Of a DNA stretch of 64,000 bases, positions 44,027-47,557 are shown piece by piece. The position numbers and the translations under genes were made by a program. How positions within the stretch are numbered: the first letter of the stretch is position 1; the number at the start of each line of letters is the position of its first letter. The notes under the pieces are model-generated. The model was given only the letters and a program-made list of their open reading frames with translations, made no database searches and had not been told where the DNA came from. Origin of the DNA: an uncultured Aquimarina sp. (lineage in GTDB: Bacteria > Bacteroidota > Bacteroidia > Flavobacteriales > Flavobacteriaceae); contig CALLUJ010000031.1 in the NCBI GenBank assembly GCA_938011245.1, positions 1-64,000 on the forward strand, given 5' to 3'.

Positions 44027-44572
44027 ATGGAAGAAAAAGCAGTTTTGGCTGGAGGTTGTTTTTGGTGTACAGAGGCGGTCTTTCAGCGTTTAAAAGGGGT
44101 TGAAAAAGTACGGTCAGGATTTAGTGGTGGTTATATTAAAAATCCTGCATATAGAGAAGTGGTTACTCAAAGAACAGGACATGCAGAGGCTATAGAAATT
44201 ACATTTAACTCAACAGTAATATCGTTTCATCAATTATTAGAAGTTTTTTTTGCGACTCATGACCCCACTACGTTGAATAAACAAGGTGCGGATGTGGGAA
44301 CACATTACCGAAGTGCTATTTTTTATATTTCAGAGAGCCAAAGAATAGATGCGAAAACCTTTATTGATACATTAACTACAGAACATGTTTTTGAGAGCCC
44401 TATTGTTACTGAAATAACCCCTTTTGAAGCTTTTTTCCCTGCAGAACAGTATCATACTAATTATTACAATTCTAATAAGCAACAAGGATATTGCCAAATG
44501 GTAATACGCCCTAAAGTAGCAAAATTAAATACTTATTTTAGAAAAGAAATAAAGTCCGACTTTTTGGAATAA
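44027..44572 (+). CDS. msrA: Peptide-methionine (S)-S-oxide reductase
   Basis: AVLAGGCFWCTEAVFQRLKGVEKVRSGFSGG; FFATHDPTTLNKQGADVGTHYRSAIFY; AEQYHTNYY. Confidence 0.96.
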   Translation: MEEKAVLAGGCFWCTEAVFQRLKGVEKVRSGFSGGYIKNPAYREVVTQRTGHAEAIEITFNSTVISFHQLLEVFFATHDPTTLNKQGADVGTHYRSAIFYISESQRIDAKTFIDTLTTEHVFESPIVTEITPFEAFFPAEQYHTNYYNSNKQQGYCQMVIRPKVAKLNTYFRKEIKSDFLE

Positions 44573-44600
44573 GATTTGCAAATAAATATTAAAAACAACT

Positions 44601-44876
44601 ATGAATAAACTTTTAGTGCTTTTATTGAGTTTAATATTTGATGCTATTGGAATGGTGTCCTATGTTTGGCCAGGAGTGGGAGAAACAATGGATGTAGTTT
44701 GGGCACCAGCTTCGGCTTGGATAATGACTAAATTATATAAAGGAAAAGAAGGAAAAATAGCAGGAATAATTGCTTTTATTGAAGAGATTATTCCTGCGAC
44801 AGATGTTATTCCAACATTCACAATAATGTGGGTTTATACCTATGTAATTTCCTCTAAAAAAGAGAACAAATTTTAG
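44601..44876 (+). CDS. Small hypothetical membrane protein
   Basis: 91 aa, hydrophobic segments, immediately downstream of msrA. Confidence 0.6.
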   Translation: MNKLLVLLLSLIFDAIGMVSYVWPGVGETMDVVWAPASAWIMTKLYKGKEGKIAGIIAFIEEIIPATDVIPTFTIMWVYTYVISSKKENKF

Positions 44877-45739
44877 TTAGCCTTTAATTGAATCGTAGCT
44901 TCTAAAGCTACATCTGGCCATAATTTATTTTGATGGTGTCCTGCACATACCTTTTCTAAAGTATCGTGTCCATTTTGCCATTCAAAAAATGCAAGATCTG
45001 GAATAGTTCCTTTTAGAGTTAGCAGTTTTCCGTCTTCGGAAAAACTACTGCTTAATTCTATGTTTTGTGTAATAGAATTCATAGTAAAGGCTATAACAAC
45101 GGTATTGCCCAAATAACTAATTACTTTTCCTTTAATGGTCGAAGTAAAAGCACCAAAAAATAAGCCTACATTAGTAGTACGTACTATTTCGTTACTCACA
45201 TTTACTGAACTTGTGTTAATAGTAATTTCGGCATCTTTTAAAATATCTATAGGATTTTCAAAACCTTCATTAAGAGTAAAATTAAAGTCGTCAAAAGTTC
45301 CGCTTACACCCGCTCTTTCATTAAAATTGGGGTATTTATAAGCAGTCCATTGCAGCCGTATTCTATTAGGTTCCGATGTTGTAGGACCATTAAGTATTGT
45401 AAGAAAGTTGTCAAAAACTTGCTTTTCTTCTGCAGTAAGAATATCAGAATCGGGAGGAGGCATAACTGTATTGTCGCTTTTATTAATTCGAGACAACATT
45501 AAGGATATTGAAGATTTCGTCTTTTCAAAAGAATCGTAACGATTGGTGCCTTCTAAATGGTAAATATGACAAGAGATACATTTATTTTCTATAATTGCCC
45601 GTAAAGATTGGTCATAAAGTACTCTAGCTTCGGTATCGTTTGTTGGAAATAAAGTTTCTGCGTTTTCGGAAGTACAATTTACTAACCCAATACAGGTAGT
45701 AAATGTAAGTATTATTTTTATTAAAGTACGATATAACAT
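44873..45739 (-). CDS. Lipoprotein with N-terminal c-type heme site and C-terminal YceI-like domain
   Basis: Lipobox CIGLVNC; heme motif IIENKCISCHIYHLEGTNRYDSF...VMPPPDSDILTAEEKQVFDNFL; C-terminal RLQWTAYKYPNFNERAGVSGTFDDFNF...ITINTSSVNVSNEI...GLFFGAF...TMNSITQNI...GTIPDLAF...WPDVALEATI. Confidence 0.75.
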   Translation of the reverse strand: MLYRTLIKIILTFTTCIGLVNCTSENAETLFPTNDTEARVLYDQSLRAIIENKCISCHIYHLEGTNRYDSFEKTKSSISLMLSRINKSDNTVMPPPDSDILTAEEKQVFDNFLTILNGPTTSEPNRIRLQWTAYKYPNFNERAGVSGTFDDFNFTLNEGFENPIDILKDAEITINTSSVNVSNEIVRTTNVGLFFGAFTSTIKGKVISYLGNTVVIAFTMNSITQNIELSSSFSEDGKLLTLKGTIPDLAFFEWQNGHDTLEKVCAGHHQNKLWPDVALEATIQLKAN

Positions 45740-46116
45740 TTTGTTAAGCTTATTTCGTTAAACATATCATCAAACCCACTAAAAATACCCTTAACAGTTA
45801 AATAATCTCCTTTAACAAAAGGAGGGTTTTTATCTAAAATTATTTCACATTTAATACCTTCATTTAATACGATAATAATGCTTTCTTTTCCTTTTTCAAT
45901 ATCGGTAACTTTTCCAGAAACTTGAATAACCTTAGAAAGTAATTCGGAAGAGGAGGAGGTTTGTCCCGATCCAAATTTTGCAATGAGTTGAGGAGCAATA
46001 GTACTTAAATAAGGCTTGGTAGTAGCTATATCTTTACTGGGTTTTTGAAATAAATAATAGCCATACCCAGTAGCCGAAAGTAGGGCTACAACCACAAGAA
46101 TTAGAATTTTTTTCAT
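45721..46116 (-). CDS. OB-fold/tRNA_anti-like secreted protein
   Basis: N-terminal TM/signal then VIQVSGKVTDIEKGKESIIIVLNEGIKCEIILDKNPPFVKGDYLTVKGIFSGF. Confidence 0.65.
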   Translation of the reverse strand: MKKILILVVVALLSATGYGYYLFQKPSKDIATTKPYLSTIAPQLIAKFGSGQTSSSSELLSKVIQVSGKVTDIEKGKESIIIVLNEGIKCEIILDKNPPFVKGDYLTVKGIFSGFDDMFNEISLTKCYIVL

Positions 46117-46118
46117 AA

Positions 46119-46661
46119 TTATTTATAATTTGTAGCTACAGAAATTTTAATTTGTTCGGAAATTTTGTCTTTTACTAGTGACGGAACTTTAATATCATAA
46201 TCTTCTAATTTTAAGTTAAAAGAAGAAGAAAAGGATATGGAGAGGTCTTCTTTAACTTCAATATTCGCAATAATTATTAAAGGTTTTTTTACGCCATGAA
46301 ATAACATTTGGCCATTTATTTCTACACCTTCATAATTATGTGCTTTGTCCAATGCTACAGACGGAGGTATAGAGCCTTTAAATTTTGCTGCAGGAAATTT
46401 ATTGGAGTGTACGTATTTTTCATTAAAATGCTCCTCCATTAAGGCTTTTTCAAATTTGAAAGATTTCATTAAAACGTTAAAAGCAATTTGTTTTTCGTTT
46501 ACTAATAAAATACTAGCGACTTGATTATTTTGAGCGGCTATGTTTTCGATAGGTGTTTTGGAAAGAAACTGAACACTTCCCGTGCGGGTTACTTTTTTGT
46601 TTTGAGCAAATGCGCCGAAAACGGTAATAGTAATCAGCATAATTAAGAGTTTGTTTTTCAT
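46119..46661 (-). CDS. YceI-family protein
   Basis: Signal peptide; FNVLMKSFKFEKALMEEHFNEKYVHSNKFPAAKFKGSI...GQMLFHGVKKPLIIIANIEV. Confidence 0.88.
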   Translation of the reverse strand: MKNKLLIMLITITVFGAFAQNKKVTRTGSVQFLSKTPIENIAAQNNQVASILLVNEKQIAFNVLMKSFKFEKALMEEHFNEKYVHSNKFPAAKFKGSIPPSVALDKAHNYEGVEINGQMLFHGVKKPLIIIANIEVKEDLSISFSSSFNLKLEDYDIKVPSLVKDKISEQIKISVATNYK

Positions 46662-47557
46662 GATTTGTGTTTTTTATGTTTAGAGGTATTAAAAGCTCTT
46701 AGAAGACTAAAGCCGAAATTGATTTCGCGATCAAAAAAATTACCACTTTGGTTAATAGCGAATTTTCCAGGATGTAAAGCAAAAGCATTGGTAAAGTATA
46801 GTTGAAATACATGTCCTCCAGTTTCTATATCAAAACCAATACTAAATGTGTTAGCCTCATCTTGGTGTAAATCGAAATTAGGAATAGTATAATAATACTC
46901 GGCATTTAGCGAAATGGATCCAGAAAACAAATAACGACCACCAATACCAATACTGTAAATATCGTTAGGTTCTTCTATGTTATCGGTAAGGTTTCGATGT
47001 ACCCATATTGGAGCTACTTGCAGGGATAAGTAATCATTCATTTTTCGACTAATCAATGCTTGATTTATATAATCTATACGACCTTCAAAATTTTCGTCTC
47101 TAGCTTTTGGAGTGTATTCTCGAGTTTTAATATCTATATTTCCAAAATAGGAAATATTAAAAGGAAAGGGTTTTTGTCCTGTTTTTTGACGCAGTAGACT
47201 AAGTTTTAAAGTTCCTGAATAAGTTTTATCGGGCTTATTAGATCTAGCTATTCCTGCCTGAATATAGTTAGTAATTCCATATTCAAAACCTAAATGCATA
47301 TTGTTTAAATTATCTAGCCCAAAAAAATTATCAATGCCTTTTATTTTACTAAATACATGAGAAACTCTAAAATGCAATTGTCCAGTTCTAACACGTTCGG
47401 TAGATTGACCAATCATTAATCGTGTAGATTTAAAAGTAGCAATTACTTCTTCTTTTTTAGGCTTAGAAATAGCATCTAATTCTGCAAATAAATCGTCTTC
47501 TTGAGCATTGAGTAGATATGTGAAAAAGCAGAGGAATAATAAGGATATTGTTTTCAA
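46658..47557 (-). CDS. DUF5777-like outer-membrane beta-barrel protein
   Basis: Signal peptide; TERVRTGQLHFRVSHVFSKIKGIDNFFGLDNLNNMHLGFEYGITNYIQAGIARS; beta-strand-rich. Confidence 0.75.
   Translation of the reverse strand: MKTISLLFLCFFTYLLNAQEDDLFAELDAISKPKKEEVIATFKSTRLMIGQSTERVRTGQLHFRVSHVFSKIKGIDNFFGLDNLNNMHLGFEYGITNYIQAGIARSNKPDKTYSGTLKLSLLRQKTGQKPFPFNISYFGNIDIKTREYTPKARDENFEGRIDYINQALISRKMNDYLSLQVAPIWVHRNLTDNIEEPNDIYSIGIGGRYLFSGSISLNAEYYYTIPNFDLHQDEANTFSIGFDIETGGHVFQLYFTNAFALHPGKFAINQSGNFFDREINFGFSLLRAFNTSKHKKHKS

Follow-up and report, generated by a model that had tools for sequence, protein, structure and literature searches.

Does the outer membrane of Bacteroidota house a lipid or quinone relay fed by a haem or a Rieske centre? 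The question is raised by P0001, a 288-aa lipoprotein encoded at 44873..45739 on the minus strand of the window (the 64,000-nucleotide stretch of uncultured Aquimarina DNA analysed here), in which the open reading frame, alignment, and Foldseek identified a fusion of cytochrome c and YceI. From the N-terminus, and all on the minus strand, the protein contains a signal peptide with lipobox GLVNC (45674..45739), the lipidated Cys being residue 22; a monohaem cytochrome c-like domain at residues ~44–118 (45386..45610), with C54-I-S-C57-H58, H61, and M93-P-P; and a YceI lipocalin domain at residues ~127–288 (44876..45361), with C265-x3-H269-x4-W274. The motifs quoted in the preliminary description—GLVNC (C22), NKCISCH (C54, C57, and H58), VMPPP (M93), and several C-terminal stretches—were all found in this reading frame. 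Taken alone, P0001 scores under the Pfam cut-offs for both YceI (PF04264; 16.4 vs. 23.7 bits) and Cytochrome_CBB3 (13 vs. 27), so that the reading of its domains rests on relatives, fold, and alignment. Its CTSENAE stretch shows only partial likeness to SDDFE, the consensus predicted as a surface-export signal in F. johnsoniae (PMC5080379), so that the fusion may lie on either side of the membrane. Two further reading frames, an MsrA gene and one of 91 aa (44027-44876 of the window), converge on the fusion gene; the 91-aa ORF and the fusion gene share 4 bases at their stops. Inspection by eye of the other fusion loci revealed no neighbouring MsrA gene, and this neighbour was dropped as functional evidence.

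For the N-terminal half, matches were obtained to stand-alone cytochrome lipoproteins of ~115–125 aa, with E values down to ~1e-10. A profile (A5) of 20 fused and stand-alone domains, in all of which C54, C57, H58, and M93 are invariant, was found to match bc1 cytochrome c best in the PDB (E = 6e-6), followed by cytochrome c6; PDB searches with P0001 or with a profile of the fusions alone returned nothing significant or useful. An AlphaFold2 model of this half, built without haem (pLDDT 76.5), had no PDB match at E ≤ 1e-3. Since the haemless model matched nothing whereas the profile of relatives hits c-type cytochromes, the assignment rests on sequence and not on fold: the N-terminal half is probably a cytochrome c-like domain, with M93 as the probable axial ligand.

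The preliminary description had further proposed a YceI lipocalin fold for the C-terminal half. Indeed, with the full model (pLDDT 74.7), all 15 PDB matches obtained by Foldseek at E ≤ 1e-3 were structures of YceI proteins, the best of them at E = 9.5e-8. BcnA, E. coli YceI, and the polyisoprenoid-binding domain of S. degradans are included, and the X158 structures 2x32 and 2x34 are among the top matches. Stand-alone relatives pass the Pfam YceI cut-off, at 26.6 to 49.3 bits. Overall, the union of a monohaem cytochrome c and YceI in one lipoprotein is supported by relatives, fold, and alignment, the cytochrome half by its sequence.

A scan of GTDB recovered the fusion at 11 further loci from Aquimarina, Algibacter, Dokdonia, Kordia, and other Flavobacteriaceae, a lower bound given that the scan relied on two short motifs; some of these loci belong to the same genomes as in a search of the genus. 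In that search, eight of 69 genomes contained a match at E ≤ 1e-12, seven of them full-length fusions, the window's own included. Beyond the window's own, no full-length fusion turned up among 392 genomes sampled from the order and 397 from the phylum, indicating that the fusion is rare, and no viral relative was found in BFVD at E ≤ 1e-3. Alignment of the 12 fusion proteins showed nine invariant residues—C22, C54, C57, H58, H61, M93, C265, H269, and W274—and the CxxCH motif, on whose conservation in homologues the preliminary description had made its reading depend, is thus present in 12 of 12; the linker between the haem domain and YceI differs in length. Such invariance is attributable neither to chance nor to an assembly join in one genome, and the occurrence of the fusion in 11 other genomes likewise ruled out an assembly artefact or chance ORF. 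In a tree of 88 YceI domains, which was midpoint-rooted only and with a bootstrap not fully settled, all 12 fusions fall on one branch (support 100/100); the joint between cytochrome and YceI arose once, in some marine Bacteroidota.

The fusion gene is the last of a minus-strand operon, in which it is preceded by genes for a DUF5777 outer-membrane beta-barrel (299 aa; 46658..47557; PF19089, E = 1.2e-81), the operon's own soluble YceI (180 aa; 46119..46661; PF04264, 47.4 bits, cut-off 23.7), and an OB-fold protein with an N-terminal membrane segment (tRNA_anti-like, PF12869; 131 aa; 45721..46116; 28.7 bits, cut-off 23.5). The OB gene overlaps the start of the fusion gene by 19 bases. The complete operon was observed at nine of the 11 GTDB fusion loci; locus L073 retains DUF5777 and YceI and lacks only OB, and the fusion at L072 is solitary, outside the operon. 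The window's genome contains three DUF5777 clusters, namely a canonical one (C143), the fused one (C31), and one without a cytochrome (C124). In the last of these (L164:4928-8095; G000:C124), the order OB, YceI, and DUF5777 is followed by two adjacent ORFs matching successive parts of DUF4331.

Of 242 Bacteroidia genomes sampled, 216 contain DUF5777, and the literature searched yielded no paper that mentions it. Across 40 DUF5777 loci—taken largely from the high-scoring end of the list and not a random draw—a cytochrome lies within 3 kb of the barrel at 37, YceI at 33, OB at 19, and cytochrome together with YceI at 30. At seven of the 40, a cytochrome is present with no YceI nearby, such that YceI is not an obligate partner. 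Cytochrome matches numbered 56 in the 235 kb within 3 kb of DUF5777, and no cytochrome, YceI, or OB match was found in the 162 kb lying more than 3 kb from the barrel. The three loci without a cytochrome each have, beside the barrel and in the cytochrome's place, a Rieske [2Fe-2S] protein above the Pfam cut-off (L146:6093-6527, L188:5560-6048, and L189:4515-4964), the second ligand pair being unusually spaced in L146. As every one of the 40 sampled loci has a Rieske protein or a cytochrome c close to the barrel, the constant feature of the partner is its redox activity; that an iron–sulphur protein unrelated to the haem protein can occupy its position suggests a common role in electron transfer. 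A few cluster cytochromes carry CxxxCH instead of CxxCH, and at L183:6103-6924 and L186:3566-4393 a cluster cytochrome domain is joined to SprB repeats.

The best account of these observations is that the lipid-anchored fusion serves as a redox relay in the cell envelope, between the putative haem and a YceI-bound prenyl ligand, a plausible reading that we hold to be about evenly balanced between right and wrong. Electron exchange would take place on or close to the outer membrane, between the haem and a prenyl ligand that a YceI barrel carries; in Bacteroidota, this ligand is probably menaquinone or a related isoprenoid. The likeliest use would be to keep the bound lipid in its reduced state or to quench lipid peroxyl radicals, as has been put forward for BcnA–LcoA, and the fusion would make permanent a cytochrome–YceI pairing formed by separate proteins in relatives. 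The relay is favoured by the single origin of the fusion, its operon with DUF5777, YceI, and OB, the homologues of its N-terminal half among cluster cytochromes, and its YceI fold, and also by the concentration of cytochrome genes beside DUF5777 and the precedents of Cbp2D and LcoA–BcnA. A periplasmic redox adaptor had been suggested in the preliminary description, and the redox protein found near the barrel at each of the 40 DUF5777 loci strengthens that idea. Against the relay stand the haemless model of the N-terminal half, which gave no cytochrome fold, the seven loci with a cytochrome and no YceI, the L072 fusion outside the operon, and the unusual Rieske spacing in L146; furthermore, quinone carriage gives no explanation for the invariant Cys-x3-His of the fused domain.

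Alternatively, the fusion may merely hold two partners of the DUF5777 complex, each acting on its own, at one place and dose, the haem serving another partner and exchanging nothing with the YceI ligand. The canonical YceI is kept in the same operon as the fusion, and the loci with a cytochrome and no YceI imply that the pair is not required; however, proteins joining a redox domain to YceI in other phyla suggest direct coupling, and we regard simple tethering as rather unlikely.

The ancestry of the fused YceI domain was read from the tree of 88 domains, in which the fusions share a group with YceI lipoproteins (99/99), away from the 51 YceI proteins of the clusters; the fused domain derives from the stand-alone YceI lipoprotein family, and a copy of the operon's own YceI was ruled out by the same tree. 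Across fusions and YceI lipoproteins, the Cys (C265) is present in 35 of 35, the His four residues on (H269) in 34 of 35, and the Trp (W274) in 35 of 35, with C-x3-H absent from the cluster proteins (0/51). C-x3-H-x4-W is a signature of this lipoprotein subfamily, shared by the fusion and stand-alone members in L028–L049. The ligand of the fused domain may thus differ from that of the cluster YceI proteins, with C-x3-H a possible site for a metal, haem, or covalent ligand. In a second alternative, fused YceI might bind a metal or other ligand through C265 and H269, with the haem acting there and not on a quinone; the distribution of the motif agrees with this, but no further protein ligands are evident and both residues could be structural, and we judge such a role to be distinctly improbable. 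A sensor, in which the haem detects a gas or the redox state and thereby controls whether the YceI barrel binds lipid, would suit the single haem site and the variable linker but is very improbable in view of the invariant axial Met, which is typical of electron-transfer cytochromes, and of Rieske proteins at the cytochrome's place in other loci.

Returning to the relay, a wider proposal can be made tentatively, as one that we lean somewhat against: DUF5777 clusters may constitute a redox system of the outer membrane, as yet undescribed and present in nearly all Bacteroidia, in which YceI-bound lipid is fed by a cytochrome c or a Rieske protein. The fusion would be its most compact form and would contribute a YceI domain of the Cys-His type that has a new cofactor or ligand. 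The value of the fusion lies in telling which proteins work together, namely a haem domain and a YceI barrel, in a widespread and unstudied cluster.

Literature searches on YceI with Rieske proteins or with Bacteroidetes lipoproteins yielded nothing of use. YceI–cytochrome proteins are already known, and the covalent link is therefore not unprecedented. Cbp2D of Cellvibrio japonicus contains CBM2, X158, FN3, X183, and X132 domains, X158 being a YceI domain, with UQ8 binding in a relative, and X183 a cytochrome (PMC8981238). Like the fusion, it combines a YceI domain and small c-type cytochrome domain(s) in one polypeptide; unlike the fusion, it has its cytochromes after YceI, is ~1,100 aa long, binds carbohydrate, is tied to cellulose use, and has no reported DUF5777 operon. 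No CBM domain was detected in the Pfam scan of P0001. LcoA–BcnA proteins are cytochrome b561–YceI chimeras of alphaproteobacteria with a proposed part in peroxyl-radical detoxification; in them, electron flow from haem to quinone has been proposed to act against lipid peroxidation (PMC9113575). They likewise join an N-terminal haem protein to a C-terminal YceI barrel, but their cytochrome is b-type and membrane-embedded, whereas that of the fusion is c-type and soluble and is carried by a lipoprotein, with one CxxCH domain after the lipobox and no N-terminal cytochrome b561 membrane domain. The canonical cluster of the same genome (C143; cytochrome, OB, YceI, and DUF5777) likewise brings these protein families together in an operon, but there, unlike in the C31 fusion, the cytochrome is a lipoprotein of its own, 116 aa long, to which no YceI domain is fused. 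By analogy, the fusion would work like Cbp2D and LcoA–BcnA while being a member of neither.
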